Virus record (IMG/VR): IMGVR_UViG_3300033141_001695 | Coordinates: 1-60,000 of that record | DNA: 60,000 bases | Direction: 5' to 3' (one strand) | From: a virus | Shown: in pieces, positions 1,092 to 51,192 of the stretch | How the letters are laid out: each line of letters begins with the position of its first letter | Numbering within the stretch: the first letter of the stretch is position 1 | Made by a program: the position numbers and the translations under genes | Notes under the pieces: model-generated | Database searches by the model: none | Told to the model about the DNA's origin: nothing | What the model saw: the letters and a program-made list of their open reading frames with translations, nothing else

Positions 1092-1592
1092 TTAAAAATT
1101 AATTCTCAAAGCCTGGCCGATAGCCAAGAATAAGGTCTTGATCGGGATCGGGCAATTAAGCGTGTTGTAATTTTTATTTTTAGCCAGCCGTGTCCCGAAT
1201 TCTGACAACCAAAGTTTTTTGTTCTCTATCCACGCTTTTTGAAGTTGAGGAACTGGCAACAAATAACACATATAACTTGGCAAGATTGCATATGCTATAT
1301 AATCGCAGAACAAAGGTTTCTCGGCCCACCCTTTGGTGTTTGTCTTGTCGTTGCTGACATATTCAACCAAGATATCTCCATAGTCTTTCCTCCTGACCTT
1401 TTCATCGATGTAGATAGCTTTGCCAGAACTTAAAATAACTGTCCTATCTATCCCAAGTCTTTGCAGTTGGCCATCCTCGCGCATATTGACAAAGCCATGA
1501 TTTTCAGGGAAAGCCTTACCATAAATTTCAGACCAAATTGGTAAATCCTCTGCCGAATGACTAAATGCTAAATCATTTTTGAAGTTATTCAT
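1092..1592 (-). CDS. Hypothetical phage protein, possible PD-(D/E)XK-like fold
   Basis: The 166-residue protein has no family I can name firmly. 'LGIDRTVIL' followed by 'AIYIDEKVRRKDYGDILVEY' has the acidic-Lys spacing (D-E-K, then D-x-x-x-E) often seen in PD-(D/E)XK nuclease cores. A Trp (KGWAEKP) and a hydrophobic Tyr-rich strand follow. The start overlaps the stop of the ParB-methyltransferase gene by ATGA. A nuclease role is only a suggestion from motif spacing. Confidence 0.72.
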   Translation of the reverse strand: MNNFKNDLAFSHSAEDLPIWSEIYGKAFPENHGFVNMREDGQLQRLGIDRTVILSSGKAIYIDEKVRRKDYGDILVEYVSNDKTNTKGWAEKPLFCDYIAYAILPSYMCYLLPVPQLQKAWIENKKLWLSEFGTRLAKNKNYNTLNCPIPIKTLFLAIGQALRINF

Positions 1593-2803
1593 ATTTCGTT
1601 ACCGAATACTGACCATCCCGGCCTTGACTCTCTGCAATACATTTCAAGCTTGACTCTATCTCCAAACGCTTGTTCTATCCATTCATAAACGCACTTTGGC
1701 TTTTTGCTGTGCTGTGTTCTGGCCTCCCTAAAAACTGAAGGTACCCTGAAGTTACTCAGCGGTGGCGAAACCTTGCCTTTGGTAGCAACAAACAATAGTT
1801 CGTGTCGTCCACGAAACCAGTAGCCCATCCCAATTTTTTCTTTATCCCAAACTGCATGAGTTTTGTACTCAAAACCCCATAAATCAATAAGTTCAAAAGC
1901 CTCTCTTAACTTTGGAGCGGTTGCCCACATCAAAAGAATGCAGTCGCTTTGGGTTTCCGGCAAATGGTCTTTCATATCTGAAACCGTTGCAGTGTCGTAT
2001 TGGTTCTCAATTTGCCTGTTTGAAGTTTCGGCAAAATCATATTTCCACGGAGGATCGGCAAGAATGAGGTTCGGCAATTCGGTTATCATGGGTTCTTCAA
2101 CCCTTTTTTGTTCTACCTCCTGAACACGTTCCTGATATTCTTCTTTCCGTATCTCACGCTTTGCCTCTTTAACATTTTTGACCTTCCCGGCCTCGACACG
2201 CTCAAGGATATCTTTTTGTACTTCAGGCGTTTCCCGGATAAGTATCTTCGCATCCGGAATTTTAACGGCACCAGATTTAACCTTTTCGTGAATTTCTGGA
2301 GATTTTTCTTTGATTTTTTGTGCGTCTGATATGTAGCGCGGGCTTGCGCCAGTCATGTTCGATAATTTTGTCCTGGTTTCGTTATCTTCCTTGTGAATCT
2401 GTTCCGGTAATTTTGCCGGAACAGAATCTTTAGGCTCAGGTTGTCCGATTTCTTCCACAGGTTTTCTGATCTGCCGCTCTTTGGCCTCGGCTTTCAACGT
2501 ATCAACCACGCTCTGCATGTCTACCGCTACAGCCGCGCGCTGGCTGGGGGTCAAATGCCGCCTGTGAAGGTTTTCAGATACTACGAAGGATAACGGATCA
2601 CTGCCTTGATATGTTTCGAACCTGGGCGTTACTCCCGATCTTTGGCAGGCAAGATACCGATTGCGGCCATCAAGTATTTGGTCTTCATGCAAGATAATCG
2701 GATTGTTTAAACCGTTTTGGCCGATATCGACTATCAGCTCCTCTAACTCTACGCCCGCCAACATGGGAAAAATATTAGCATATGAATGATTTTCTTTTTT
2801 CAT
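1589..2803 (-). CDS. ParB-like N-terminal domain fused to MT-A70 adenine methyltransferase
   Basis: This 404-residue protein has two recognisable parts. The first ~100 residues are ParB/Sulfiredoxin-like: 'ELIVDIGQNGLNNPIIL', 'ILDGRNRYLAC' and 'SENLHRRHLTPSQRAAVAV'. Residues ~100-240 are charged and helical, including a region like the HTH of ParB (TGASPRYISDAQKIKEKSP). From about 245 an MT-A70 domain follows, with the ADPPW catalytic motif near residues 249-253, 'LLMWATAPKLREAFELIDLW' and a C-terminal 'HSKKPKCVYEWIEQAFGD'. The start at 2803 is preferred over 2827 because AAGGAG precedes it. The fusion suggests site-directed adenine methylation guided by a ParB-type DNA-binding module, which is inference. 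Confidence 0.93.
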   Translation of the reverse strand: MKKENHSYANIFPMLAGVELEELIVDIGQNGLNNPIILHEDQILDGRNRYLACQRSGVTPRFETYQGSDPLSFVVSENLHRRHLTPSQRAAVAVDMQSVVDTLKAEAKERQIRKPVEEIGQPEPKDSVPAKLPEQIHKEDNETRTKLSNMTGASPRYISDAQKIKEKSPEIHEKVKSGAVKIPDAKILIRETPEVQKDILERVEAGKVKNVKEAKREIRKEEYQERVQEVEQKRVEEPMITELPNLILADPPWKYDFAETSNRQIENQYDTATVSDMKDHLPETQSDCILLMWATAPKLREAFELIDLWGFEYKTHAVWDKEKIGMGYWFRGRHELLFVATKGKVSPPLSNFRVPSVFREARTQHSKKPKCVYEWIEQAFGDRVKLEMYCRESRPGWSVFGNEI

Positions 2804-2813
2804 GTAATCTCCT

Positions 2814-2996
2814 TTATTTATTATCATTTAAAAGTTTTTGAATCTGAAAAATCAACTCAGAATTCGGCAAGGTCTTCCCGTTTTCATACCTGTGTATCTC
2901 GGCCGGGGTTTTCCCTAACAATTTTCCGAATTCTTTCTGAGTGATCTGTAATGATAGCCTGCTTGTTTTGATAAATTTTTCTGTTTCTGATTTCAT
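2814..2996 (-). CDS. XRE-family HTH regulator (Cro/CI-like, HTH only)
   Basis: At 60 residues this is only the helix-turn-helix: 'LSLQITQKEFGKLLGKTPAE' and 'IHRYENGKTLPNSELIFQIQ' match the XRE/HTH_3 pattern, with the invariant ENGK. The start is ATG 2994-2996 with AAAGGA upstream; a longer open frame to 3068 runs through the promoter region and has no ribosome site. It is the first gene of the leftward early operon and faces the divergent rightward module. That is the classical position for a lysis-lysogeny regulator. Confidence 0.88.
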   Translation of the reverse strand: MKSETEKFIKTSRLSLQITQKEFGKLLGKTPAEIHRYENGKTLPNSELIFQIQKLLNDNK

Positions 2997-3003
2997 AGGT
3001 TCC

Positions 3004-3032
3004 TTTATATAGCATAAAAAAAGATTAATCAA
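3004..3032 (-). promoter_or_regulatory. Leftward sigma70-like promoter for the XRE operon
   Basis: Read on the minus strand, TTGATT (3027-3032) is followed after exactly 17 bases by TATAAA (3004-3009). The expected transcript start is around 2997, directly at the XRE ATG (2996). The message would then be leaderless or nearly so, as known for lambda cI from PRM. The AAAGGA site overlaps the -10 box, so a second upstream start would be needed to use it. Confidence 0.55.
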
Positions 3033-3050
3033 GCAAAAAAAAAGATTAAT
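3016..3050. repeat. Twin AT-rich direct repeat between divergent promoters (operator candidate)
   Basis: AAAAAAAGATTAAT occurs at 3016-3029 and again at 3037-3050, offset by 21 bp (two helical turns), so both copies lie on the same DNA face. The first copy covers the leftward -35 box and the second sits just upstream of the rightward -35 box. The XRE regulator next door is the obvious candidate ligand. Confidence 0.6.
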
Positions 3051-3055
3051 AACGC

Positions 3056-3084
3056 TTGACAGGAACAAAACTAAAGTGTAGATT
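3056..3084 (+). promoter_or_regulatory. Rightward sigma70-like promoter for the recombination module
   Basis: A perfect TTGACA (3056-3061) is followed after 17 bases by TAGATT (3079-3084). It drives toward the small Cys-rich gene at 3257 and the recombination genes beyond. It lies immediately beside the twin AT-rich repeat and back-to-back with the leftward promoter, so both could be controlled by one regulator. Confidence 0.65.
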
Positions 3085-3103
3085 GATTTTCACGTAACAT
3101 CAA

Positions 3104-3140
3104 AAAGGAGGTGCCCCATGAAACGCCGCTAATCCCGGCA
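3104..3140 (+). promoter_or_regulatory. Leader minicistron MKRR with hairpin-sequestered SD
   Basis: About 30 bases after the expected transcript start comes a strong AAAGGAGG, then ATG AAA CGC CGC TAA (3118-3132), a four-codon reading frame. GGTGCC at 3110-3115 can pair with GGCACC at 3135-3140, enclosing the minicistron and part of the ribosome site. Leader peptides of this size can act by ribosome occupancy or stalling. No function can be shown here. Confidence 0.4.
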
Positions 3141-3256
3141 CCCAAAATTGTTCTAATGTAGTTTCAAGTAAATGATGGGAGTGGCCGTTCGGGTGGCAGA
3201 ACTTGGGCGGCCGCTTCAACTGTAAAGAAATCCTTAACAGTTCAAAGGGAGGTTTC

Positions 3257-3709
3257 ATGAAAGGCAAAATAGGTAGCTTAGGTTCGTTATATATTGAAAG
3301 AGGCGGTTTGATGGTCATAGCTGATTGTAAATATAACGAAGGGGTTGCCTGCTCACACCGCTGCGCACACTTCGGCAATCCGGAAAGAGGCGATATGGAC
3401 ATGCCCTGTCACTGGACGCTGGAACTCTGCGACGGCAAGAAACTTGTTTTTGAAGAATTTATCGACGAAAGGGTGAACGATCAAAAAATAATACATGGTA
3501 TTAACTGTAAGAAAGAACCCCATATCAGGACTGGCTATCTCCATGCCGATGATGACGATTCTCCATATAGAGTAGATGGTTGTTACTATTGCGGACGATG
3601 CCATAGAAGTTTAGATTCATGCGACTTGAAGGAAATAAAAAACAATGCTGATCGGCAAACTCAGGCAAGACATGGACATGATGTCAATTTCAACAAGGGG
3701 ACAAAATGA
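3257..3709 (+). CDS. Cys-rich hypothetical protein (zinc-binding type)
   Basis: The 150-residue protein is rich in Cys and His in small clusters: 'ACSHRCAHFG', 'CHWTLELCDG' and 'CYYCGRCHRSLDSC'. The last is a CxxC-xx-C arrangement typical of a zinc ribbon. Start ATG 3257 follows GGGAGG; the frame stays open upstream to 3203 without a ribosome site. It is the first sizeable gene of the rightward operon, and its TGA overlaps the next ATG. Confidence 0.75.
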   Translation: MKGKIGSLGSLYIERGGLMVIADCKYNEGVACSHRCAHFGNPERGDMDMPCHWTLELCDGKKLVFEEFIDERVNDQKIIHGINCKKEPHIRTGYLHADDDDSPYRVDGCYYCGRCHRSLDSCDLKEIKNNADRQTQARHGHDVNFNKGTK

Positions 3710-3876
3710 CCGGAAATCTCAGGCAAGACATCAAATATCTCAGACAATTATGCGACATGTATCCTGGCAGAAGATTCAAAGAGATCATGCAGATTGAAAG
3801 CCAAAAACTCGGCTGGATGGCGACAACCGGACAGCAGATTATATCGGTAATGGGAGGAAATGGATATGCATATTGA
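3706..3876 (+). CDS. 56-residue hypothetical protein
   Basis: A short open frame begins at ATG 3706-3708, overlapping the previous TGA (ATGA), and ends at TGA 3874-3876 inside the next gene. It is a basic helical peptide (MTGNLRQDIKYLRQLCDM, PGRRFKEIMQIESQKLGW). It fills an otherwise empty 150-base gap in a tightly packed operon, which is the main argument that it is real. No family is recognised. Confidence 0.55.
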   Translation: MTGNLRQDIKYLRQLCDMYPGRRFKEIMQIESQKLGWMATTGQQIISVMGGNGYAY

Positions 3877-4228
3877 AACTACTGTGGACAACTATGTCGG
3901 AAGGGACAACTTTATCGGCACAATCAACGTCCCGTACTGCGACAAATGCAAGGCCCAAAAACCGGATGATTCGGTAGAGGCTCTCGTATGGTATCACGAA
4001 ACACGGAAAGTACAAGGCGTTGAGTCTTCATATGATATATGCCCGGATTGCCAGACCAAAGAGCAAGGAGGGTTGACAAAGCTCTTGGCAGAAAACGAAC
4101 TAAAAAACATTGATGCTGGAATCAATCGACTCAGACAGGAATCCCGGAAGATAGAAACCAGGATTGCACGGAAAGAATTGAAATATCAAATGATCAGGAG
4201 GATGTTGAGGGGGATGGACAATGTCTAA
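3866..4228 (+). CDS. Zinc-ribbon plus coiled-coil hypothetical protein
   Basis: The 120-residue protein carries CDKC (with KAQKP) and CPDC about 40 residues apart, a probable treble-clef or zinc-ribbon pair. A charged C-terminal helix (RLRQESRKIETRIARKEL) is likely coiled coil. Start ATG 3866 is chosen because GGAGG lies 8 bases upstream; ATG 3860 is only 2 bases from it. The end overlaps the next gene by 8 bases. Function unknown. Confidence 0.72.
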   Translation: MHIETTVDNYVGRDNFIGTINVPYCDKCKAQKPDDSVEALVWYHETRKVQGVESSYDICPDCQTKEQGGLTKLLAENELKNIDAGINRLRQESRKIETRIARKELKYQMIRRMLRGMDNV

Positions 4229-7818: not shown

Positions 7819-7884
7819 CCCATGTTGAACAATCCTTTCATATATAGTAATATCCCTGTCCCAAATACACTGGGGGGCATCTGC

Positions 7885-8457
7885 ATGAAGGGGAATATCT
7901 ATTCGCGGCAAAAATGCTTTGTATGCGGCGCAAAACTGGCGCATGACGAACGGCGTAACGGGTGTTTCTGCCTGAAACATCCCCAGGTGGCAGCCACGCG
8001 GTTTTATGTCCGGTTTGAAAAGGTATTTAAAAATTTCAAATCCTACCCGGAAGCCGCGCAGTTTCTCAGCGGCCTTCGTTTCAAAACAGTCGAAGGCTCT
8101 TTTGATGCCCGCGACTATCAGAAAGACGCGCCCATGGGATTCGAAACCCAGGCCAAAGAGTTCATCCGCTCCAAGGAGCAGCTCAAGATCAAATCGATCA
8201 ACAACATCAGGAATTACATGAACCGTGCCATGGCCGTCTTCGGGCAGAAAAACGTCAAGACGTTCAACCGCAAAGACATTCGCTTATTTCTGTACGGCAT
8301 CCAGGGGATCTCGGAAAAGACCAGGCACAACCACCGGTCTTGCCTGCATGATTTTTTCAAAAGCCTGGTCGATGACGACGTGATCCCGCCTATTAAGCGA
8401 CCAACTTCATCTATTTTCCTAATCAATATTTCAAACTTTTTGAAAGACAAAAACTGA
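7885..8457 (+). pseudogene. Tyrosine integrase, N-terminal fragment (catalytic domain missing)
   Basis: The first ~170 residues look like a phage tyrosine recombinase. There is a zinc-binding start (KCFVCGAKLAHDERRNGCFC), 'FKSYPEAAQFLSGLRFKT', 'ARDYQKDAPMGFETQAKEFI', then the SAM-like core-binding region ('NNIRNYMNRAMAVFGQKNVK', 'GISEKTRHNHRSCLHDFF'). At about 8385-8400 the integrase sequence stops, and the frame reads through antisense avd sequence to a chance stop at 8457. The catalytic half (Arg...His-x-x-Arg...Tyr) is absent from the window. ATG 7885 follows GGGGGG and matches the usual MKG-type integrase start better than ATG 7822. The product should be unable to recombine DNA. Confidence 0.85.
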
Positions 8458-8696
8458 AGATTTTTAGCCATTTCGATCTGGCGTCTTAGAATTTCATGCT
8501 CCACATCCATCTCCTGCATTGTCGTCTTTTTATAGTATCGTTTATTTGCGCTGATCATCAGCTTCAATACTATGTATATCTGCTTTTTGATATCCGCCGC
8601 CAGGCCGAATTTTTCCGATTTTGGGAATTGACGAAGCGCAATATATGCATATTCCGTAAGTTCCAGCATTTTTTGATATACGATTAAATTTTCCAT
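8214..8696 (-). CDS. avd: DGR accessory variability determinant (avd), 3' end replaced
   Basis: Residues 1-104 match the Avd four-helix-bundle family: 'YQKMLELTEYAYIALRQFPK', 'AADIKKQIYIVLKLMISANK', 'EHEILRRQIEMAKNL' and the closing 'IDEVGRLIGG'. Avd is a basic pentameric partner of the DGR reverse transcriptase, needed for mutagenic cDNA synthesis. Normally only about 15-20 residues follow the 'VGR.IG' motif. Here the frame instead reads ~56 residues of antisense integrase sequence to a stop at 8214. It lies just downstream of the variable-region gene, the usual DGR order, but no template repeat or reverse transcriptase follows. Confidence 0.85.
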   Translation of the reverse strand: MENLIVYQKMLELTEYAYIALRQFPKSEKFGLAADIKKQIYIVLKLMISANKRYYKKTTMQEMDVEHEILRRQIEMAKNLQFLSFKKFEILIRKIDEVGRLIGGITSSSTRLLKKSCRQDRWLCLVFSEIPWMPYRNKRMSLRLNVLTFFCPKTAMARFM

Positions 8697-8710: not shown

Positions 8711-8728
8711 GGCCTGCTATCGCAGGCC
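8711..8728 (-). other. DGR hairpin/cruciform downstream of the variable region
   Basis: A perfect 7-bp stem GGCCTGC/GCAGGCC encloses a 4-base loop that reads GATA on the coding strand. It lies 15 bases past the stop of the target gene. In studied DGRs a 7-10 bp stem with a GRNA tetraloop at this place promotes target recognition in retrohoming. The fit in stem length, loop and position is very good. Confidence 0.8.
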
Positions 8729-8743: not shown

Positions 8744-9955
8744 CTACAGATTACTGATCGACAAGGCGGCGCGAAAGCCAAGGCTGTAGTCCGTGCCCGT
8801 CGGCGTACCGAGCGTACTGACAAGCAAACCGGAACGGGCGTACGAGGTCTTGTCCCAGTCGCCGCAACGTCGCAAAGCACGGGAATTATTGTTGTCATAA
8901 GCATACCAAGAATCCAGATATGTGCTATAGTGCGTCGATGGATCAGCTTTATTCGGCAGTACCATATATTTACCGGTAGCATCCTCCAACAATGCTCCGA
9001 TATTTTTCCATCCGGATGCTGCACCATTGCTGATATCCACGGCGGTTTTAAGCTGGATTAAGTCATTATCGCCGTGGGGCAATGTAAGAGCAGACGATAA
9101 AATTGCTCGCCCTGTAAATCGTCCTGTGATGATTATTCGTTTTATAGTAACATCTTCGTCCCCATTTATTATATCGGTGATTGTATAAACACCGGGTGTT
9201 AGTTGAGATACATCAACGCCATCGCCTGCGGCGTTATCATCATAATCAATATATGTGTCCGTAGCGATTCTTGCCCCAGCCAGATACGCTTTCGGCTGAT
9301 ATAGTCCACTCTCGATCCGGCAGTCTTCCCACTCGTAAATATTGGCAACCAGATTATGAATCCCTCGGCCGGGTAATCCATTATGCCACCACGAAGCGGG
9401 ACCAGAGCCGGTTAGTTTTCGATATGCAGTATATACCGGATCAGTAATGCCGTAATTCTCCCAACTATCCGCATCCCGAATGTCTTTCCCACTGTTATTA
9501 TTGCCTCGTTGCTGTCCCCACATTCCTGATTTCATAATAAGAGACAGAATTGAAAACCGCTCAAACGGTGTAAGCAAATGGCAAAATCTATCTCCAATCT
9601 TTCGATTGCTTGCGGCAATTCTTGCATTAAGCCATGAAATATCTGTCCACGGCACAACGCCTGGTTTTGAGCATGCAGCCACAAGACCGGGTGAATCGGC
9701 TGAAGTAGAACCTCGACTTGTTGAAGATGCATCGGGCTGACAAGCTTCATATACATCAGCCCAAAAACCTCCTGCTTCCAAATCATTCAATGCTGCTTGA
9801 GGCCAACCGGACGTTTTGAATCGCGGAATAAATGCCATGGTTGAAATAACATCATCACCAGTACCATCATTATTTGATTTATGAACGAAATCCCGAACAT
9901 CCAAAGATGAATTCAAGGCAGCCTGTATGCCACCTAAACTTAAAGGTATATCCAA
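8744..9955 (-). CDS. DGR target protein with C-type-lectin-like variable domain (tail tip/adhesin)
   Basis: The 403-residue protein starts at TTG 9953-9955 behind GGAG. The C-terminal ~200 residues resemble the formylglycine-generating-enzyme/C-type lectin fold of DGR targets: 'GRGIHNLVANIYEWEDCRIE', then 'SRALRRCGDWDKTSYARSG' and the closing 'LGFRAALSI'. The last ~50 residues form the variable region. It is the final tail gene of the late operon, so it probably sits at the fibre tip and decides receptor binding. It is followed by the DGR hairpin and avd. The N-terminal 200 residues are unassigned and may anchor it to the tail. Confidence 0.88.
   Translation of the reverse strand: MDIPLSLGGIQAALNSSLDVRDFVHKSNNDGTGDDVISTMAFIPRFKTSGWPQAALNDLEAGGFWADVYEACQPDASSTSRGSTSADSPGLVAACSKPGVVPWTDISWLNARIAASNRKIGDRFCHLLTPFERFSILSLIMKSGMWGQQRGNNNSGKDIRDADSWENYGITDPVYTAYRKLTGSGPASWWHNGLPGRGIHNLVANIYEWEDCRIESGLYQPKAYLAGARIATDTYIDYDDNAAGDGVDVSQLTPGVYTITDIINGDEDVTIKRIIITGRFTGRAILSSALTLPHGDNDLIQLKTAVDISNGAASGWKNIGALLEDATGKYMVLPNKADPSTHYSTYLDSWYAYDNNNSRALRRCGDWDKTSYARSGLLVSTLGTPTGTDYSLGFRAALSISNL
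8747..8905 (-). other. DGR variable region (VR)
   Basis: Within the last ~53 codons, a run of codons ends in C or T (GAC, TAC, CTT, GTC, AGT, GGT, GGC, GAC, TAC, AGC, CTT), interspersed with constant codons. This is what adenine-specific mutagenesis of AAC/AAT codons in a template leaves behind. The 3' end (8761-8785 region) is GC-rich, like an initiation-of-mutagenic-homing site. No template repeat was found in the window for direct comparison, so exact limits are approximate. Confidence 0.7.
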
Positions 9956-11766: not shown

Positions 11767-14700
11767 TTACCTTTTCCGCTTCATCTTTAAATAATGTAAC
11801 CGATACCATTTTAAAGCAATATTATAGCTCTTTCGTTGTTTTTTATTCAGTGATCTCAAAAACTTACGTCTTAATCGTTTTGGAACAGAAGCCAATGGAT
11901 GAGTTGCTTTTATGCTTATTTTAATGCCACCAAGCGTTCCACCTAACTTTTTATATTTTTCCAAATACCGTTTAGCTGCACTTAAATCTCCATACTTCAG
12001 AGATTGTTTGTAATAATATAAAGCATTGGATTTTGTTGTCGGAATAAATCCAGGCTTTTCAATGCCTTCTTTATCCAAAAAATCGAATGATGCTTTCTTA
12101 ACATCATAATACGCCGATTCCCCAGGATCGGACGTATAGAACCCCAAAGATAGCACGTCATTAAAAAGACGTTCCGTTATATCTTCTCCTCTCTTTGGTT
12201 TTCCGGCTATCCACTTATAGGGTAGATTCATGGAGAATGTCCGTGCAATATGCTCCCATTTATCACGGATAGGACGAGGGAAAAATGGGTCCGGATAAGT
12301 CGTTCTCCCAAGAACAGTTTCTCCAAGAGTTTTAATTATAGGCCTTGAACCATGCCATATTTTTATTACAGGCGCCTTGAAAGCTTCTTCCATTTTTGTA
12401 CCAATTGGTTGTATCCCTTTTGCCACATCGCTTATGTCATGGACAATATCTTCAGCACCAAACCATGACAGCGTATCGCTTAATGCTCCTTGGAATCGCA
12501 AAGAAATGATACTACCATCTTCCCTCCTACCTAAAATCAAATGAAGCTGTCTGCGTTGAGCTTCCCCCAATTCTTTTTCTTCGTCCGGAAAGAAGGTCAT
12601 ATTCCACAATATGACAGCGCCGTATAAAGCAGTTGCTTTCAATCCTAATTTGGTTGCTTTCCATGCCATAGCACCAGATACAACTTTTGTGCTTTTGCCT
12701 TCATGCGGAAGGTTTTGAAGTAATCTCACATATCTTGGGGCATTGATTTCTTGCCATGACCAGAACGGGATCATGTGCGCTCTGAGCCATTGCCCTGCCT
12801 GTGAAATATTTCCGTAATCACCGATTAATTCTCGCGCTAATTTTGCAGCCATTTCATCGGACGTTGCGCTTTCAGCCATCTTTTGCAACTCCGCCCGAAT
12901 GGAAACACCATTGAGATTGATCCCGGGCTTTTTACCTTTTGCAATTTCATCTTTGAAATATCGGAAAGCTGCAAGCCTGAGAAGATTTTCTCGATAAGTT
13001 GTATATTGCACTGCACTTCGCCAATATTTTTGTATAAGATTTGGCTTTTCTCCAAGCAACATTGACATGTGCTTGTCATGGGATAATTGACTAGTCACTT
13101 CAGCAACTTCCTGAATAGACCATCCAGAACCTAATACATCTAATTTATACGATTGATCTATTTCAGCTTGAAGTTCATCTGATATCTTTTTCTTTTTGAG
13201 TTCCTGCCATAAATCCTTAGTGGCTTTTGGAAAATAATTTTTTATAATTCGCGGTTCATAAGCAAGGATGATATCTGAATCGCCAGAAGTATTATTGATA
13301 TTGTATTTTATCCATCGGAACGGATTCATCAATATCCATTTTTTCCATGCACTAATCATAGTTACCGATGCTTTTTCTAAGACATTATCTTCAGGAAACT
13401 TTCTGAACTCATCCATTGTTAAGGCTAATTCTTGTGGAATTACCCATGTTTCATCGATACCTCGGGCTAAAATCTGTTTGACATCTTCCGGCTTTAACTG
13501 GCTGGTTCCTTCTTGAATTTCCATTAACATTCGGTCTGTAATAGAGTTGGCTTTAAACCATGCCGTTCCTGGTCTTGGTTTCCAAGTTGTGTAGCCTTCA
13601 GGGATTAGTTTTGTCCAATCTTTTATTTCCTTGGCCTTGGCTTCTGCTTTTAAACTTGGGACAATATTGGCTAAGTCCTTGATTCTGTCTAATGTTTTCT
13701 TTGTTTCAATCTGAGATAAAGCTTGAGCTATTACCTCAAATTCAGAATCAACATATTGAGTGTTGTAATCTTTGATGGAACCTTTACGGGCTATCTGCCA
13801 ACCTTTTCTATGAGCACGAACATCTTTTGCCGATGTTCCCGTACCTGGTTTGTAATCCTCACCCATGGCCTTGGCCAATTGGTATTCCATTACCTGATGG
13901 TGAAAATAATCATCATATTTCATTACATCTTCAGAAAGCAATTTATTTTCAACCAATTCTTTCTTGAGCGAATGGTTAAATTCCCTACGTCTTTTCAAAG
14001 CTTCCTTTATTTTTGGATCCTTTTCGGCAATCTTATTCAGATAATCATAATATGACTTAACGTCTTTTCTGTCTTTAAACCCAAAAGGCAATTCTTCCTT
14101 GTCTGCAAGCAAGCCATTATCAATATCACGAATCATATCACCCATGATAATATGCATGGTAAAGAAATCATATCTTTTTGGTGTCAATATTCGCAAAAAA
14201 TTATCAATGGCAGCACTCGCCCTTCTGCGTGAATCTGTAGGTATATTGGAATATATCCGTAAAATATTGAGATAATCACCATGTGTTTTAGGGTCAAGGT
14301 GTTTGTGTGTCCGTTTAAACGCTTGATAAGCTTTGGTAAATCCCCGTTTAGCTTTGTCTATCAACTTTGGTTTTGGGATACCTTTGGCCAAACCGATGCG
14401 CTCTTTCTGTTTGTCTGTTCGTCCATAAAGTGGATCTGCGTCTATTTCTGGTGTATCTTTTTTGACGCTATAGAGGATGTCTGCCTCAGTCGCAACTTCA
14501 TCCCTTACTTCTGATATTATTTTACCGGTTTCGATATCACGAACAACTCCTCTTACAGTTCTTATCCCCATCTTATTAATCACAAGATCAATAAAGTCAG
14601 CAATCTTCTGAAGTATCCTTTGGATAGGTCGAATTTGTGCATCCCTGGTCTTAAACGCTTCTTCAATAAACTTTGCTCTCGTCTCTTCGTTGGGCGACTG

Positions 14701-17700
14701 TCCTTTACGTTTAATGGCTTTATTCAGCGCAGACATATCTTTAGTGTCAAGGATTCCTGACTTTTCAAGAAAATGCGTAAATTCATGGTCAATAGTCCAT
14801 CTATTCCCTACGCCTTCAACAATATTAATCGATTTGTCAGCATGATCATAGAAGCCTGCCACTTGCTCCCCAGGCTTGAGCCCGTGTCTTCCATATCCGA
14901 CATTGAGCGTTACACTTCCCGGGTCAACACCTTCAATACTGTTGATTATGAAACCCAAATTATTCCTGAACTTGACTGATATTTTTCCGTCCTCTGCTTG
15001 GGTTACTGCGGCGGTTTTGAATCGGGGGTGAGCCTTGATTGATTCCAAGTTGATTTGGGTTAAGGATGGCACTTCTGTTATGGCGTAGACTTTTGGTTCT
15101 TTCCTCAAACCAATAAAAGGCTTAACCTCGATTTCAGGATGATGCTTTTTAAAATAAGCTTCTTTTACCGCTTGAATTGTTTCAGCTTTTTTAACTCGTA
15201 TTTCTTTCCCGGCCTTTGTCGTTTTGATCACTTGCCATTTACTGACAAAATCGTTTGCCTCTTTTAAATCATCAGTGAAAAGCTTAACATTAAAGGTTTT
15301 GCCTTGTGTTATTATTTCTTTGGCAACTTCTTTCGGCTTTGCGGGTTCTTCGGCCACGGGCTTAATTTTGGCTCGTTCAATTCTGCCTGGTTCGCCTTCC
15401 TTACGGATTGGCTCATCACCTGGTCGAAAACCGATAATTTCCTGTTGGGCTTTTCCATAATATTGTTCCTCTACTTTTTGGATGGCATTTTCAATAATTT
15501 CCGATGGAGATATTTCGGCATCATCTTCAAACAAGGCTTTTGTTTGAGCATCCATCTTAATTCTTCTGATGGCTTTTGCGGATTCGCTGAACACAAGACC
15601 CATTCGTTTTGCACTTCTGATGTTTTCATTAAGAAAACGGGTTGTTTTATGAACCTCTTCCGGGATCTGTTCAAACATGCCGATTTGCGAAAGGATCGTA
15701 TCTATCGGTTCTCCGGTTCTACGGGATTGCCTTATCAGCTTTGCCGCTGCAATGATATTGCTTGATACTTCTGACGCTGCACCGGTTCTCCCTTTAACAG
15801 CTTTTGCCTGGATAAAATGCGGAGCAGCCACGTTCAGGGCATTAAGAATGGTTTTAATGTCCGGGTCCGCTTCCTCGGCAATCAGAGTCAACAATGTATC
15901 ATCATTGTACGCCTTGTGAAAAATAGCCATTTGTATTCGATCAATCAACTGCTTAGTGTACCGGCCATCTTCTGTTAAAAAACCTGCGGCCTCGCTTGGT
16001 CCCAACTGCTTGATGAACCGATTAATAAAAGTAGAATTGCTCCTTGCTGTTATATCCCCTTCGTCGGACGGTTTGAACGTGGATAAGTCCGCATCGGTGA
16101 GTTTTTCAGCATCATTCTTGGCAACTTCAACAGGTGACATTCTGGCAACTTCATCCTGATTGGCACGTTTGGCAAAGTCCACCCGGTCAACATCTGTCTT
16201 GCGAGCCCGTACCAAAACAGGCTGATCAAGAGCTTCGATATCCTCTTTTTTCAGCCCAAACTTTTCAGCATTGGCGGTGAGCCATTCTTTATATTTTTGT
16301 CCTATATCACGCCCGTATGCCTTCCTGATAGCAATAGTTCGTCCATTGCCGGACTCAACCACCATGTCATCACCAACAATCGGAGCCCCTGATGCAACGC
16401 TGGCAGACTCGCCCAACCGTTCAGGATTCAACTTTTTTGCCATCTCTTCAATTTGAAGCTTCATGGCAGATCGTTCCCGGTCACGGGGTTGCATCTCTTG
16501 TGGGTATGCCTTGTTTATAGCCAAAGTGTCGGTATGGGAGGTTATCAAGTTATTGGCATTGGTTACGGCGTATTGTGTTTTGATAGGAGTATTGTCGCTG
16601 AGATATGAAGTTGATTCTTTACCTTTCTCGGCCACTGGCGGCACTACGATTTCCGGCTCTTTAGCAACGGGAGGCTCAACCTTCAGATCAACTTCAACCA
16701 ACTCAACCTTCTCCATCCTCGGTGCATACGTCTTCCCGTCCTCCCCTCGTACCGTATAGGAAGCCTTGTTCACCTTCTCAACGGTTCCCCGCATCGGCTT
16801 CCCGCCTTTGCCTGTCCATGTGACTGTGGCGCCGGGGATGATCTCTTTAGGTTCTACAACCTCGGGTTTCTCTTCAATGGGTGGTTTTGGTTCAGGCAGC
16901 TTTTTTTCTTCAATCCCAAGTCTTTCTTTATAATTATGAATCAGCCTTTCATTCTCTCTATAATTTTCGTATTCATCTCCAACGCCAGCTTCTTTATATA
17001 ATTGCCTTGCTTCCAATAATCTTTGCAATGCATTTTTGGGTTTTAATCCATAAGACTTTTTGTGAAGTTTATCTGCTTTGGCAACTATGTCAGTTTTTGG
17101 CTTTATTGGTTCAATTTTCACTTCAGGCTCAACAATAGGTACAACTTTCGGTTCAGGCTTAACTTCTTCAGGCTTCTTTTTCGGTAACGTCTTTTGAGCG
17201 TATTCCCGCGCATACCGACCTACGGCATCATCCGTATCGTAGAACTTTTCAACCGCTTCCATGGATCCAAGTTCTTTGACTTTGTTTTCGATGAAGGGTT
17301 TGTTGATTTCGGGTGCTGGTTTAGGTTCTTCAGGTTTTACTTCAGCTTCCGGCAACGGCTCGACTTTGGCCTCTTCAGGTTTTGGCTCTACGGGAGGCAC
17401 AGGTTTCTCTTCCGGTATTTCCTCAACAACGGGCGGCGCAGGTTCAGGCACAACTTCCGGTGGTATTACCGCTTCCGGTTCAACCCTCGCTTCTTCTCGT
17501 CGTAATTCCTCGTCACTGGCCGCTCTTCTGGCTGCCTCTGGGAATTGAATATCCTCGCGGCTAACTCTTTCGCCCTCTTCAACGGCAATCCTTGGCGCTG
17601 GAACTTTTTTTTCAGCTTCACGTATTTCTCTGGCATATTCTTCCCCCCTTTCTATTTCTGGTCTTGTAGGTTCAACAGTTTCGACTTTTGCAAATCTCGG

Positions 17701-19518
17701 TGCGTATTTTTTACCATCCTCACCCTTAACGGTATAGGATGCTTTGTTTACTTTCTCAACGACTCCGCGTATCGCCTTGCCGTCTCTATCTGTCCAGGTT
17801 ACGGTTGTCCCTGGCGGAATTGCTTCTGTCACTGGTTCTTCGGGAATGATTCCTTCGGGCAATGTGGGTTCTATTTCTTCAACCAATTCATCTTGAATCT
17901 CTTGTGCGGCTTGTCTCCTTTGAAGCCTGATATTTTCTGTAGCGTCTATTCTGGATTCTGGATCTGTGACATATTTTTTTGCAGCAATATCACGAACCAT
18001 CATCCCGGCTTTGGCTGCTCCACCCATCACCGTAGTTGTTAAAAATACTGAAGGTGCAACTTCTCGAAGTGATTTCAAATGAGCCACGGGATCTGTCCAC
18101 TCTCTTTTTTCACCACCTAAACCAGCAGCATATTCAATATTAGACTGCCCCATCTGCGTTAATTCTTCTGTCACCAATTCAGTGCCATAAAGCGCACCTA
18201 ATTTTGTGATTAATCTTGAAATAATATTTTCACCCAAAACCGGAGCCATCCTTTTCAATGGGGTGGCTATTATCTTCAAACCCGTAGCTTGTCCTATGGC
18301 TTCCGGCAAAGCCTCCCAAAGTCCGTATTTCTGGGCAAGATTGCCGAAATCTTCTTTTAGCTTAGTTTCCTCATCAAGTGTGAGTGTCTTCCCGGTTCTT
18401 TTTAATTTTTCTTCATTTTGAACTTCAAGGTACCTCTTCATGAAATCATAAGAAGCCATGTTATAGGCAGCTTTACCGGCTGCTGCCGTACCTGCCGCCC
18501 ATGCAGCCGGTCTTGCACCAGGAATGGGAGCCATTGCAGTAGGCAACCCGACGCCTACACCGGCTAAAGCAGACAACCCAGAGAACGCCAAATTCTCAGG
18601 AAGCTGTGCAACGTCTCTTTCTGATATTCCTGGAAATATCCTTTCTTCGCCATATTGCCTTGAAAATTCTTCTGATTGTTTTTGGGCTTTTTCATATTGC
18701 TTATCAAACCAATCTTGATTGACAATACTTGCACCTTTCCAACCTTGAACCGCTGCGGCAGATTTCCCAAGCATTTGACGAGGAAGCTTTGTTAGACCTT
18801 TAGCGAATATCTTTAATCCTTCAATTGGGTGAAGTGAACCTGTCCTTTCAGGGTCTTGTTTTTTTTGTTGGCTATATATTTTGTCGATCAAAGAACCTAC
18901 GTCTCGTTTCCAAGGATCTATATATCCAAATGCACGTTTCCATTCAGGGGATCGTTGTATCCCTGCTCTGGCCAAACCTCTTGTTGTTGGTTGTTTGGCC
19001 TCTCTTATGGTTGTCGGTTGAAATTCACCACGCACAGTTGGTTGTTGAATCTCCCCGGGATAATGTTTTGAAATATTTTTAAGATATTGCCTCGTCTCAT
19101 CTGCATGGCGACCGGTAACCTTGTGGAGATTTTCAAGCCATTTATCTCCATGGGCTTTTATGGCCTTGTCCACATTCCCAGGTCCAGCGTTGTAGGCGGC
19201 GGATGCTTTTAAGGGATCTCCACCATATTTTTTCAAATTCTGAGCAAGGTACTTGGTCCCGCCCATGATACTTTGTTCTGGATCAAACGGATCTGTTACG
19301 CCCAAGTCACCAGCAGTCGCATCCATGATTTGCATTAAACCCTTCGCGCCGGCGCTTGATATGGCCTTGGGATTGAAATTACTTTCCGATTTGATTATGG
19401 CCTTGATATAATTAGGGTCAACTCCATATTCGGAAGAGGCCGAAGCAACAATGTCATCAATATTGGATGATTGTTTTTTCAATCCGGTTGTTTCCATGAT
19501 TAAGCCTTGATTAGCCAT
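11767..19518 (-). CDS. Giant virion protein: lytic transglycosylase plus polyvalent-protein domains (ejection protein)
   Basis: The protein is 2,583 residues long. Residues ~25-145 are an SLT lytic transglycosylase: 'YGVDPNYIKAIIKSESNFNP' with catalytic Glu45, 'GAKGLMQIM' and 'ASAAYNAGPGNVDKAI'. A hydrophobic Ala/Gly stretch spans ~308-350. Two copies of a ~48-residue beta module ('VTWT...RG.VEKVNKASYTV.GEDGK.YAPR') sit near 566-615 and 893-940, joined by Pro/Glu-rich linkers. Residues ~970-1290 resemble the ddrB-like ParB domain of polyvalent proteins ('GAPIVGDDMVVESGNGRTIA'). Near 1578 lies a zinc-protease motif, DHEFTHFLE. Such proteins are carried in the virion and injected to cross the cell wall and act early in the host; that role is inferred. 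Confidence 0.88.
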   Translation of the reverse strand: MANQGLIMETTGLKKQSSNIDDIVASASSEYGVDPNYIKAIIKSESNFNPKAISSAGAKGLMQIMDATAGDLGVTDPFDPEQSIMGGTKYLAQNLKKYGGDPLKASAAYNAGPGNVDKAIKAHGDKWLENLHKVTGRHADETRQYLKNISKHYPGEIQQPTVRGEFQPTTIREAKQPTTRGLARAGIQRSPEWKRAFGYIDPWKRDVGSLIDKIYSQQKKQDPERTGSLHPIEGLKIFAKGLTKLPRQMLGKSAAAVQGWKGASIVNQDWFDKQYEKAQKQSEEFSRQYGEERIFPGISERDVAQLPENLAFSGLSALAGVGVGLPTAMAPIPGARPAAWAAGTAAAGKAAYNMASYDFMKRYLEVQNEEKLKRTGKTLTLDEETKLKEDFGNLAQKYGLWEALPEAIGQATGLKIIATPLKRMAPVLGENIISRLITKLGALYGTELVTEELTQMGQSNIEYAAGLGGEKREWTDPVAHLKSLREVAPSVFLTTTVMGGAAKAGMMVRDIAAKKYVTDPESRIDATENIRLQRRQAAQEIQDELVEEIEPTLPEGIIPEEPVTEAIPPGTTVTWTDRDGKAIRGVVEKVNKASYTVKGEDGKKYAPRFAKVETVEPTRPEIERGEEYAREIREAEKKVPAPRIAVEEGERVSREDIQFPEAARRAASDEELRREEARVEPEAVIPPEVVPEPAPPVVEEIPEEKPVPPVEPKPEEAKVEPLPEAEVKPEEPKPAPEINKPFIENKVKELGSMEAVEKFYDTDDAVGRYAREYAQKTLPKKKPEEVKPEPKVVPIVEPEVKIEPIKPKTDIVAKADKLHKKSYGLKPKNALQRLLEARQLYKEAGVGDEYENYRENERLIHNYKERLGIEEKKLPEPKPPIEEKPEVVEPKEIIPGATVTWTGKGGKPMRGTVEKVNKASYTVRGEDGKTYAPRMEKVELVEVDLKVEPPVAKEPEIVVPPVAEKGKESTSYLSDNTPIKTQYAVTNANNLITSHTDTLAINKAYPQEMQPRDRERSAMKLQIEEMAKKLNPERLGESASVASGAPIVGDDMVVESGNGRTIAIRKAYGRDIGQKYKEWLTANAEKFGLKKEDIEALDQPVLVRARKTDVDRVDFAKRANQDEVARMSPVEVAKNDAEKLTDADLSTFKPSDEGDITARSNSTFINRFIKQLGPSEAAGFLTEDGRYTKQLIDRIQMAIFHKAYNDDTLLTLIAEEADPDIKTILNALNVAAPHFIQAKAVKGRTGAASEVSSNIIAAAKLIRQSRRTGEPIDTILSQIGMFEQIPEEVHKTTRFLNENIRSAKRMGLVFSESAKAIRRIKMDAQTKALFEDDAEISPSEIIENAIQKVEEQYYGKAQQEIIGFRPGDEPIRKEGEPGRIERAKIKPVAEEPAKPKEVAKEIITQGKTFNVKLFTDDLKEANDFVSKWQVIKTTKAGKEIRVKKAETIQAVKEAYFKKHHPEIEVKPFIGLRKEPKVYAITEVPSLTQINLESIKAHPRFKTAAVTQAEDGKISVKFRNNLGFIINSIEGVDPGSVTLNVGYGRHGLKPGEQVAGFYDHADKSINIVEGVGNRWTIDHEFTHFLEKSGILDTKDMSALNKAIKRKGQSPNEETRAKFIEEAFKTRDAQIRPIQRILQKIADFIDLVINKMGIRTVRGVVRDIETGKIISEVRDEVATEADILYSVKKDTPEIDADPLYGRTDKQKERIGLAKGIPKPKLIDKAKRGFTKAYQAFKRTHKHLDPKTHGDYLNILRIYSNIPTDSRRRASAAIDNFLRILTPKRYDFFTMHIIMGDMIRDIDNGLLADKEELPFGFKDRKDVKSYYDYLNKIAEKDPKIKEALKRRREFNHSLKKELVENKLLSEDVMKYDDYFHHQVMEYQLAKAMGEDYKPGTGTSAKDVRAHRKGWQIARKGSIKDYNTQYVDSEFEVIAQALSQIETKKTLDRIKDLANIVPSLKAEAKAKEIKDWTKLIPEGYTTWKPRPGTAWFKANSITDRMLMEIQEGTSQLKPEDVKQILARGIDETWVIPQELALTMDEFRKFPEDNVLEKASVTMISAWKKWILMNPFRWIKYNINNTSGDSDIILAYEPRIIKNYFPKATKDLWQELKKKKISDELQAEIDQSYKLDVLGSGWSIQEVAEVTSQLSHDKHMSMLLGEKPNLIQKYWRSAVQYTTYRENLLRLAAFRYFKDEIAKGKKPGINLNGVSIRAELQKMAESATSDEMAAKLARELIGDYGNISQAGQWLRAHMIPFWSWQEINAPRYVRLLQNLPHEGKSTKVVSGAMAWKATKLGLKATALYGAVILWNMTFFPDEEKELGEAQRRQLHLILGRREDGSIISLRFQGALSDTLSWFGAEDIVHDISDVAKGIQPIGTKMEEAFKAPVIKIWHGSRPIIKTLGETVLGRTTYPDPFFPRPIRDKWEHIARTFSMNLPYKWIAGKPKRGEDITERLFNDVLSLGFYTSDPGESAYYDVKKASFDFLDKEGIEKPGFIPTTKSNALYYYKQSLKYGDLSAAKRYLEKYKKLGGTLGGIKISIKATHPLASVPKRLRRKFLRSLNKKQRKSYNIALKWYRLHYLKMKRKR

Positions 19519-46015: not shown

Positions 46016-46609
46016 TTATATTGATACTTTTTCGTAAGCTTGATATTTTAATTTTTGTCTGGCTACCCTACTTACTGATGCTTGGGATGAGCCATATTTC
46101 ATAGCTATCTCTCTTTGGCTCATGCCTTGCGACAATAATTCTAATATCTTAGATTCATATTTAATTAGCTTTGATTGAGCTTTGGACTTGTTTTTCCTCC
46201 AAGAGTCTTTTCTTTCCCACTTAGCAGCATTTCTTAGTATGTTTCTATGAGACTCACTCATTCTACGACCTAATTTATACTGGTGTTTTATATTTTCAGA
46301 ATGCTCAATCCATTCCAAATTATCTACATTGTTGTTTAATTTATCTCCATCTATATGATTCACCTCAATATTTATGCCTTTTGGCTTTTCTAAAAATGCA
46401 TTAGCAACAAGACGATGGATCATTACTGGATATTTCTTGCCACTTTTATTGAGCGAAACCATCGCATAACCAGGAGTTCCCATTTGAAGACTTAAAAACA
46501 TACCCGTATGACTCTTTTTTGGGTAGCTCCATATACGCCCATCTTGAGTAACTGCGTATAGTCCTTCAAATCCATTAATATCAACCAAGCCTTTCATCTC
46601 TGTTTTCAT
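46016..46609 (-). CDS. NUMOD4-HNH homing endonuclease
   Basis: The 197-residue protein has a NUMOD4 head ('INGFEGLYAVTQDGRIWSYP'), an HNH core ('VMIHRLVANAFLEKP', 'EVNHIDGDKLNNNVDNLEWI', 'EHSENIKH') and a C-terminal helix-turn-helix ('SQGMSQREIAMKYGSSQASV'). It is the third free-standing HNH gene in the genome. It overlaps the end of the preceding gene by 29 bases, typical of a recent insertion. ATG 46609 is used, with GAAGA upstream. Confidence 0.9.
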   Translation of the reverse strand: MKTEMKGLVDINGFEGLYAVTQDGRIWSYPKKSHTGMFLSLQMGTPGYAMVSLNKSGKKYPVMIHRLVANAFLEKPKGINIEVNHIDGDKLNNNVDNLEWIEHSENIKHQYKLGRRMSESHRNILRNAAKWERKDSWRKNKSKAQSKLIKYESKILELLSQGMSQREIAMKYGSSQASVSRVARQKLKYQAYEKVSI

Positions 46610-46976
46610 TCTTCGCATCTCGCTCTATAAGCATTTGTTTAAAATACATAGTCAAATCCAAAAGTTCTTGGTACGCATCCATAAGGGCATCACGTCCATT
46701 ATTAACTTTTAAACGGGTTCCATATTTCACTTTGCCAACGTCCGACCTTGCAACTAAATCTTTTATGACTTCAGGTAATACGCTTTTCCCATCTCCTCGT
46801 GGCATCGGTTCTGGTACTGCCGGACTTGACTTCCAGTCCTCCTCACCATCCTGCACCGGCATCACCCGCCACCCTTTCTGCTCTTCCATCATTTCCTCCT
46901 GAATCTTTGCAATGCTTCGCCAGAATTCCTTTTTTTCTTTGGCAACCTGTCGTTTATCGTCCACAGTAGGCCTCAT
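46581..46976 (-). CDS. Conserved phage protein, MazG-like helical domain
   Basis: The 131-residue protein has a variable N-terminus and a conserved end 'LPEVIKDLVARSDVGKVKYG' 'TRLKVNNGRDALMDAYQELL' 'DLTMYFKQMLIE'. This 'KYGT.L..NNGRDALMDAYQELLDL' pattern is common in phage proteins thought to be related to MazG-type NTP pyrophosphohydrolases (E-E-L-x-D-like helices). Substrate unknown. Coupled TAATG to the deaminase gene. Confidence 0.72.
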   Translation of the reverse strand: MRPTVDDKRQVAKEKKEFWRSIAKIQEEMMEEQKGWRVMPVQDGEEDWKSSPAVPEPMPRGDGKSVLPEVIKDLVARSDVGKVKYGTRLKVNNGRDALMDAYQELLDLTMYFKQMLIERDAKNENRDERLG

Positions 46977-47419
46977 TATCTTTTGATCATCTCAATTTCG
47001 ACTCCGGCTTCCGTTAACATTTTGCCGGAAAATTTGTCTGAATATCCGTCCAGATAGTAAACTTTTTTGATACCTGCATTAATAATCATTTTGGTACATA
47101 TGGAACAGGGAAGGTTGGTGCAGAAAAGCGCCGCCCCTTTTATGGAAACTCCATGAAGAGCCGCCTGAATAATAGCATTTTGCTCGGCATGAACCCCTCT
47201 GCATAGCTCGTGACGTTCACCTGATGGTATATTTAGTTTTTCACGCAAACAACCGATTTCGGTACAGTGGGGAACACCGCTGGGGGCTCCATTATAGCCG
47301 GTAGCCAGTATCCTCTTGTCCTTTACAATAATAGCCCCGACCGAACGTCTGAAACAGGTCGAGCGTGTTGCAACAAGAATACATATGTCCATGAAGTAGG
47401 TTTCCCATGAAGGGCGCAT
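46976..47419 (-). CDS. Deoxycytidylate (dCMP) deaminase
   Basis: The 147-residue protein has the zinc site '[13 protein letters not shown]' (His77, Glu79) and '[20 protein letters not shown]' (Cys105, Cys108), plus '[12 protein letters not shown]', all typical of the dCMP deaminase family. It makes dUMP from dCMP for thymidylate supply. The start at 47419, with AAAGGAGACATA, is better than 47482. It sits among nucleotide-metabolism-like genes. Confidence 0.93.
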
Positions 47420-47459
47420 TATGTCTCCTTTCAAACCAGCGAATGAGTTGGTTGATATT

Positions 47460-47948
47460 TCATTTTTCCATCCTTCTTCCACGTCTCAATTCATTCAAAT
47501 CGTCCCAAACCTTAGAAGCCAGCATATAACATGACAATATAGTATCTTCAATTTCTTCCATAAGCGATTGAGCATTCTTTTTTGTTGGGGCCTCGCTCCA
47601 ATCATTCAAAGCCTGTTTGGTCTCATGCGCTTCTTCAAATATTTTTTCAAGACATCGCCGGGTCGGATACCGTTCCTCTTCAAATGCTATCTTGTGATCA
47701 TGCCGCCTTGCTGAGTTCTCGGCAAGTTGTGGGAGGACATGGAAGCCATATCTGACACCACAACGGTTATTCCATGCGTCAATAGCATCTTGTTTATTTT
47801 CACAATAACCATTCAATGCCAACCCACAACATCCACTATCCCTTTCGCCTGAACATGTTACAACATATGCAGTAGAATAAATATTGGTTAATGTTGATAC
47901 AAGACCATCGCTTCTGCAAAACGGACACGGTAATAATTTATCGTTCAA
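47460..47948 (-). CDS. Lar-like zinc-finger protein with helical C-terminal domain
   Basis: The 162-residue protein begins '[20 protein letters not shown]' and continues to '[11 protein letters not shown]' and 'AIDAWNNRC', the Lar/restriction-alleviation zinc-finger plan (LPCPFCG...A.AWN.R). The C-terminal half is helical with '[15 protein letters not shown]', like a MazG-type helix bundle. Lar proteins reduce type I restriction. TTG start with GGAGG upstream. Confidence 0.8.
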
Positions 47949-47960
47949 TCAATCCTCCTT

Positions 47961-48395
47961 TCAAACCAGCACCAGCACCAGAAACTTAACTGCATCCGAA
48001 ATATAAACCATTGCGCCGTTGCGTTTGATTCGGTTCTGTTTGTTATTTTTGCGGTATCGCTTTTTCAAAAGTATTGGTAACGGCTGATCGTTGGTTATAG
48101 GCAAAAGCCTCGAAAACTGTTGAGAGGAAAGCTTTGTCATGTTCACAAGATATTGATAGTTAGAAATACGCTCAAGGTAACCGTGTAATAAACCGTACAT
48201 CGTACCTCCTCTATTTGTTATATAGAACAACTCTGTCCTCTTGTCTTCAACAATAAGTGTTTCCAAAATAGCCCTTAATCTCGACTTGATATATTCGGAC
48301 CCACCAATAACTACAAAACTTTGGCCAGCTGTCTTTGTGGGAGATGCGGAACCGGCGTAATATACATCCGTTGCATTGTATGTTCCTGCTCCCAT
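47961..48395 (-). CDS. Hypothetical protein, possible non-canonical AUA start upstream
   Basis: The frame from ATG 48395 encodes 144 residues (MGAGTYNATDVYYAGSASPT). The AGGAGG ribosome site, however, lies 24 bases upstream, too far for this ATG. Exactly 6 bases after the AGGAGG is ATA (48411-48413), in frame, adding INNITV ahead of MGAG. The protein then continues with 'AGQSFVVIGGSEYIKSRLRA' and a basic end. The function is unknown. The start is reported at the conventional ATG. Confidence 0.65.
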   Translation of the reverse strand: MGAGTYNATDVYYAGSASPTKTAGQSFVVIGGSEYIKSRLRAILETLIVEDKRTELFYITNRGGTMYGLLHGYLERISNYQYLVNMTKLSSQQFSRLLPITNDQPLPILLKKRYRKNNKQNRIKRNGAMVYISDAVKFLVLVLV

Positions 48396-48423
48396 TACTG
48401 TTATATTGTTTATTTTTGACCTC

Positions 48424-48888
48424 CTATTTCAAAAATAATTCTTTTGAATGCCAAGCCATCAAAAGTGCGTCGGCCCGTCCATTATGTTTCTTGAGATGCA
48501 GTTCCGCATCCGGGAAAAGCCGCCGGGCTGCTGTAAGACTCCGCGCCTTGGTGTCCTTTCCGTCATTTCTCAATATCAGGCCCTTTTGCCATTTTTGGGG
48601 GCGGATAAGGGAAAATGGAATGCCGACGGTCGCCAGTATTCCACGCCAGATTCCAAAGTTAGTTCCAAAGTTGAACATGCTGACTGCTCCGTTTCCCGGG
48701 AATGCCGAGACAGCCTCAAGGACACAGTATCGAATCTCAAAATTATCCGCAAGCTGCTTGATTTTCCTGGCTGCGCTCGCTTCATCCCCCGGCCAATCAA
48801 ATACATCGTATGTGGCGCCGTCTTCTGACATGTAAGCACAGGCGCCGGTTTTGCCAGGGTCAATTCCAGCGTAAACTATTGTTTTCAA
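48424..48888 (-). CDS. RuvC-like Holliday-junction resolvase
   Basis: The 154-residue protein follows RuvC: 'AGIDPGKTGACAYM' (Asp10), 'YCVLEAVSAFPGNGAVSMFN' (Glu58), and 'HNGRADALLMAWH' (Asp140). Length and order match cellular RuvC. It would resolve recombination or replication junctions before packaging. Start TTG 48886-48888, with GGAGGG upstream. Located in the early replication region. Confidence 0.9.
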   Translation of the reverse strand: MKTIVYAGIDPGKTGACAYMSEDGATYDVFDWPGDEASAARKIKQLADNFEIRYCVLEAVSAFPGNGAVSMFNFGTNFGIWRGILATVGIPFSLIRPQKWQKGLILRNDGKDTKARSLTAARRLFPDAELHLKKHNGRADALLMAWHSKELFLK

Positions 48889-48899
48889 TCGCCCTCCTT

Positions 48900-49073
48900 T
48901 TACCTCTGATTCAAAGCTTCCAGAAGTCTCAAAATGTGCCTTCCGTATTTATTAGTCGTATCTATTGTTATCCGCATCCTGTCGTAGCTCATATTGACAA
49001 AAGAATCACTCCTATAAGTCTCATGCTTAATCTGTATCTGTTTTTTAGCTTTCGTTATTTCGGATTCTTTCAA
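48900..49073 (-). CDS. Hypothetical small basic protein
   Basis: The 57-residue protein starts at TTG 49071-49073 (GGAGGAGC upstream) and is basic and helical ('SEITKAKKQIQIKHETYRSD', 'SYDRMRITIDTTNKYGRHIL'). It lies between the resolvase gene and a long non-coding stretch. Function unknown. Confidence 0.58.
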   Translation of the reverse strand: MKESEITKAKKQIQIKHETYRSDSFVNMSYDRMRITIDTTNKYGRHILRLLEALNQR

Positions 49074-49242
49074 AGCTCCTCCTTTCAAACTTTCAAATAT
49101 CGCTCAAATCCATTTTCTCGTCTTACTCCTTAAGGGTTTTATACACTCAATCTTTTTTTGTCCGAGGATTTGAAATTTACCCTGCTCACGTTAGGATTGT
49201 GGGCGTGGTGTAGATATGGTTTTAGGTTTTTCAATCAAGTTT

Positions 49243-49268
49243 TAACCGTATCGAATTCGACACGGTTA
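49243..49268. repeat. 26-bp near-perfect palindrome
   Basis: TAACCGT, one changed position, TCGAATTCGA, one changed position, ACGGTTA. Only one base pair breaks the symmetry, and that pair can be G-U in RNA. It could be a dimer binding site or a replication hairpin. Confidence 0.8.
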
Positions 49269-49271
49269 GAG

Positions 49272-49295
49272 TTTCTAATAATTTCAGATATTTAG
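49272..49295. repeat. 24-bp imperfect direct repeat, copy 1
   Basis: TTTCTAA.AATTTCA..A.TTAG pattern shared with 49408-49431 (20 of 24 bases the same). This copy starts 4 bases after the palindrome; the second copy starts right after the ssb stop. Confidence 0.7.
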
Positions 49296-49407
49296 AATGG
49301 TATGGACTTATACCCACGTCTCGTTTTTATTTTAGAGAATTGTGTTTCCCGGTATTTTTTCTTATTAGGCAGCGTAATGCATTTTATTGTTTTTATTATT
49401 TGCCATT

Positions 49408-49431
49408 TTTCTAACAATTTCAAACACTTAG
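49408..49431. repeat. 24-bp imperfect direct repeat, copy 2
   Basis: Second copy, ending at 49431 directly beside the ssb stop codon, 136 bases from the first. Confidence 0.7.
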
Positions 49432-49890: not shown

Positions 49891-49950
49891 GCCTATTTAT
49901 TCCCCTTCTGATCGATTATAGCCATTATTTTGTTTCGGTTCCACTTCAGA

Positions 49951-51024: not shown

Positions 51025-51036
51025 TTTCAATCCTCC

Positions 51037-51113
51037 AAAAAAAAGGCCGTATATCTGTATCGATCCCTTAGAAGGATTGCAGCCCTTGCGGTAACTGCCA
51101 GATATACGGCCAA
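51037..51113 (-). ncRNA. C4-like antisense RNA / structured leader of the antirepressor
   Basis: On the minus strand a 13-bp outer stem (CAGATATACGGCC at 51099-51111 with GGCCGTATATCTG at 51045-51057) encloses two inner hairpins, GCAG...CCGCAAGG...CTGC and ATCCTTCTAAGGGAT. That gives a Y-shaped fold. It is followed at once by eight U and then the GGAGG of the antirepressor gene. Phage P1/P7 C4 RNA has this Y-shape and controls the antirepressor just downstream. I judge it a C4-type element from shape and place, without a covariance search. Confidence 0.68.
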
Positions 51114-51192
51114 GATGAGTTTTATGATTTTCTAAGTTATCGATATTCAACTCAAATCACGTTTGGTTCCGAATGTCAAGAATATTTCCATT

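Follow-up and report, generated by a model that had tools for sequence, protein, structure and literature searches.

The DGR of Bordetella phage BPP-1 consists of a target gene with its variable region (VR), a hairpin with a GRNA loop, the accessory gene avd, a template repeat (TR) and a reverse transcriptase (RT), in that order (PMC3240598). The published rule for target recognition in such elements is a hairpin with a GC-rich stem of 7-10 bp and a GRNA loop, and a laboratory deletion, BPP-1deltaATR, keeps the target and the hairpin while avd, TR and brt are gone (PMC3240598). For the target protein itself, a further point of reference is PDB 5VF4, the variable protein of a Thermus aquaticus DGR (PMC6328139).

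Here we describe a viral genome in which such a system is present only in part. We analysed positions 1-60,000 of the record IMGVR_UViG_3300033141_001695, a stretch of 60,000 bases that we refer to as the window. The original prediction, made from the letters of this DNA, was of an orphan DGR target with a VR, a hairpin and avd in a closed genome that has neither an RT nor a TR. The three named parts are all in the sequence. The ends of the record are an exact 114-bp repeat, which closes it as had been claimed, and there is not a single N in between. The prediction recognized the orphan status of the locus and overlooked two of its features, a truncated avd and a neighbouring gene that is half of an integrase. 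With these included, the best explanation of the genome is that it carries a DGR remnant, produced by a deletion in which the integrase was broken as well.

Results

The target gene and its variable region

The target gene (8744..9955, minus strand) is an intact open reading frame of 403 amino acids with a TTG start, and encodes a C-type-lectin variable protein. When it was combined with 15 relatives into a profile, PDB 5vf4 was matched over its full length (E=3.8e-93). The window protein matches no Pfam family, while 10 of the 16 aligned target homologues individually match the FGE-sulfatase family. An AlphaFold model of the target had a mean pLDDT of 46 and its fold search was uninformative, therefore the sequence-profile match to 5VF4 was used instead. 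Relatives of the target are found in viral contigs and upstream of many avd genes; a search of 395 Desulfobacterota genomes returned a single weak, partial match.

The VR lies in the C-terminal part of this lectin-like protein, at about 8764..8881 (minus strand), and was placed by an ungapped alignment to the template repeat of the closest relative, L004. Differences fall at 17 of the 29 template adenines and at 21 of the 89 other positions (p=0.001), in a comparison between two different phages. An enrichment at adenines of this kind would be expected for the VR of a diverged phage. The closest relative of the target by identity (77%) is found on another contig, L002 (6001-6792), the end of which cuts the gene at residue 264, before the VR. 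Hypervariable DGR regions tend to break assemblies.

The recognition hairpin and a truncated avd

Behind the target gene is a hairpin (8711..8728, minus strand) with a 7-bp GC-rich stem and a GATA loop, GGCCTGC-GATA-GCAGGCC. It is more stable than expected from shuffled sequence (z=-4.8), with none of 200 shuffles as stable. In stem length, composition and loop the hairpin fits a GRNA-loop recognition element following the VR.

The next gene is a clear homologue of avd, with matches to bAvd (PF22296, E=6e-27) and to the PHROG family 'Avd protein of DGR' (E=1e-29). The earlier assignment holds for this part and fails for the rest: the open reading frame has 160 codons, and only the portion up to about residue 104 is genuine Avd (residues 1-104, 8386..8696, minus strand). 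The remainder (8214..8385, minus strand) is a foreign tail, the antisense of an integrase fragment. Of approximately 111 avd codons 104 are kept and the last seven or so are gone, among them Trp105 and Lys107, which are present in 74 and 76 of 80 relatives, respectively. Judged by its sequence, the local Avd is damaged.

The reverse transcriptase and template repeat are missing

An RVT_1 search of the entire record gave no matches. Likewise, ungapped comparison of the entire target gene with both strands of the record, with mismatches allowed at template A positions only, performed no better than shuffles. Both absences noted in the original prediction are thus confirmed at the scale of the whole genome.

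Such an arrangement is unusual among relatives. Of 80 avd relatives, 77 have a long enough flank beyond avd, and in 76 of the 77 an RT immediately adjoins avd. In 73 it lies downstream (median gap 288 bp), and in three the RT frame, counted from its most upstream start, overlaps avd. RVT_1 searches of the relatives' records agree with these counts. A TR/VR pair was detected at 67 of 72 avd loci. Since 76 of the 77 have an RT, the window locus is an exception in its family. We also considered that the missing halves had been inverted or moved to another place in the genome. This was rejected because no RT, TR or integrase catalytic domain is found elsewhere in it; the lack of inverted repeats around the locus is further evidence against this.

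Half an integrase meets avd at a single junction

Facing avd from the other side, on the plus strand, is an open reading frame (7822..8457) that begins as a tyrosine integrase and continues into the antisense of avd. The integrase part runs from 7822 to about 8388, about 189 of about 410 residues, and comprises a zinc-ribbon-like segment and the N-terminal arm/SAM-like domain. It matches the integrase family phrog_1 (E=8e-10), with Pfam SAM-like matches that are below the gathering score, and is 47% identical to L084, a full-length relative of 413 amino acids. Matches to the fragment occur in 23 of the 395 Desulfobacterota genomes. Most of these are full-length proteins of 400-440 amino acids, and they extend about 220 residues past the point at which the window protein is cut (around residue 189), with a catalytic domain. 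In the window the frame stops before this domain, and PF00589 is absent from the entire record. The fragment has no match among viral contigs, phages and plasmids, and no second recombinase was found among 30 window proteins scanned with Pfam, a subset of the open reading frames.

The two truncations meet at one junction, 8386..8388, where avd homology reaches 8386 and integrase homology reaches 8388. The broken genes have at least 3 nt (CCG) in common there. The junction pattern was found in none of the other viral contigs, and is therefore known from one assembly. An integrase frame that has stayed open over about 190 codons fits a recent event, which is an argument rather than a measurement.

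The intact arrangement in a relative

The closest relative, L004 (IMGVR_UViG_3300036941_000530), is a short contig with an avd that is 78% identical to that of the window. It carries the target, the hairpin, avd (2281-2616), the TR (2634-2751) and the RT (2914-3939) in this order, followed by a tRNA-like 3′ half. Of the 29 template adenines, 15 differ between its own TR and VR, and all 89 other bases are the same; because the differences are confined to template adenines, this is a proper DGR. DNA homology between the window and L004 (about 65% identity) spans the target, the hairpin and avd, and ends at the Gly-Gly codons of avd, where L004 2591 corresponds to window 8386. Beyond this point L004 continues with the avd tail, TR and RT within a few hundred bases, while the window continues with the antisense of another gene.

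The tRNA half of L004 resembles tRNA-Thr (an identity read by eye) and lies about 160 bp past the RT stop; ARAGORN called no whole tRNA on this contig. A tRNA or tmRNA 3′ end behind an integrase typically marks an attachment site, and the half in L004 looks like such a site. It has the orientation expected of an attachment site if the integrase gene lay beyond it. Of 13 integrase relatives whose sequence extends 600 bp downstream, only three (L084, L092 and L102) have the 3′ end of a tRNA or tmRNA there, 47-59 bp beyond the integrase stop. Taken together, the tRNA half and the attachment sites of the integrase relatives suggest that the parent had the circular order target-hairpin-avd-TR-RT-attP-integrase. 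Given that order, one deletion across attP would explain both truncations.

No strain-level sister with an intact gap was found, and the lost stretch is reconstructed from two different relatives. Two contigs from metagenome 3300022542, L087 and L088, are probably sister phages; their portal proteins share 96% and 90% identity with that of the window, and their DNA is mostly 78-86% identical. Both contigs are short and neither reaches the DGR locus. A search for sisters with the large lytic protein found none.

The rest of the genome

The phage retains anti-repressor and Rha-type regulators, thus its ancestor was probably temperate. Among the genes at 46016-51150 (minus strand) is one protein that joins AntA, Rha and a GIY-YIG/T5orf172-type domain; the same stretch encodes an HNH/NUMOD4 protein, a cytidine deaminase, a Lar-like anti-restriction protein and an SSB. 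A 2583-aa virion protein (11767-19518, minus strand) has an N-terminal part like a lytic transglycosylase, comparable with the internal virion proteins of podoviruses. At the start of the window are two nearby MT-A70 adenine methyltransferase genes (345-926 and 1589-2827, minus strand), the second behind a ParB-like part.

Discussion

We consider it likely that the avd tail, the TR, the RT, attP and the catalytic half of the integrase were all lost in one deletion spanning the attachment site, and that this froze the receptor. The parent would have been a temperate, podovirus-like phage with the order proposed above and a convergent integrase gene. Illegitimate recombination, on the phage circle or during an aberrant prophage excision, would have joined the end of avd to the middle of the integrase gene. 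We infer that the TR, the RT and attP of the ancestor lay in the gap, and that attP and the working half of the integrase were probably lost in the same deletion. The VR and its recognition hairpin would then remain in a genome that has no means of rewriting them, the receptor would be fixed at its last variant, and the phage's own integrase could no longer integrate it. The suggestion in the original prediction that the receptor may be frozen gains support, as the loss of the TR and the RT can be traced to the junction near 8386-8388. A receptor that is frozen, rather than driven from elsewhere, is most likely.

A chimeric assembly would produce the same junction, and so would a deletion molecule that is in the minority in a population really made up of intact DGR phages: with the graph broken by the variable cassette, an assembler could have connected the integrase with avd or followed a rare variant carrying the deletion. 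Contigs of the relatives are compatible with this, L002 ending inside its target ahead of the VR and L004 and L001 being likewise short, as is the absence of the junction from other viral contigs. However, the overlap of a few bases between avd and the integrase is far below an assembly k-mer, making a graph misjoin on these common bases unlikely, and the record is closed by its exact end repeat without any N. The junction may derive from a template that was chimeric, or from a deletion molecule present at low frequency. All in all, we regard an artefact as improbable, while giving it more weight than any of the biological alternatives.

Diversification of the VR in trans, raised in the original prediction, would need the RT, the TR and a working Avd to be supplied by a DGR in the host or in another phage resident there. 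By analogy with BPP-1deltaATR it is feasible in principle, and the VR, the GATA hairpin and the target frame are all intact. A second, independent orphan locus also exists, on the 16,232-bp contig L008 (IMGVR_UViG_3300002220_003632), which has a target, a GATA-loop hairpin and a complete avd (L008/L108, 212-1791), another gene 98 bp further on, and no TR or RT across the contig, although this contig is incomplete and a remote RT is possible. That said, other viral contigs contained no further copy of the VR/TR core in an exact-pattern search, near relatives have their own RT beside avd, the phage's own Avd is without near-invariant residues, and the two truncations indicate an accidental loss rather than a dispersed design. 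We hold this explanation to be quite unlikely, and the broader idea that phages such as this one and L008 are recurrent 'client' targets, rewritten in trans by DGRs of hosts or co-infecting phages, to be slightly less likely still. The least probable reading is that the target and avd entered this phage together, as a module, and never had an RT or TR in it, so that no DGR remnant is involved. In L008 the complete avd does lie directly before another gene, but the window avd is cut inside its conserved C-terminus exactly where the truncated integrase begins, and the recognition hairpin has been kept.

If a single deletion is indeed responsible, the phage seems to have lost receptor diversification and its own integration enzyme in one step. 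A DGR cassette beside attP and the integrase would be a vulnerable geometry, in which a phage can become tied to a single receptor, and probably to a non-integrating life, through imprecise excision. A VR and hairpin without a local RT also offer a concrete site for testing diversification in trans; should client targets truly be rewritten in this way, there is a small chance of something larger.

Comparison with known systems

The window phage can be seen as a natural counterpart of the laboratory construct BPP-1deltaATR. In both, the target and the hairpin are present and the TR and the RT are missing. The loss in the window is natural, however, and differs in extent, since most of avd is kept, the integrase has been cut in half and attP has probably been lost too. 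L004 shares a homologous target, hairpin and avd, and differs by its intact TR and RT and by the tRNA half that resembles an attachment site downstream of them. L008, like the window, has a target, a GATA-loop hairpin and avd without a TR or RT, but its Avd is complete and is followed by another gene, not by an integrase junction. The Thermus aquaticus protein 5VF4 belongs to the same full-length variable-protein family by profile; this comparison concerns the target protein only, and its source is a Thermus DGR and not a phage remnant.
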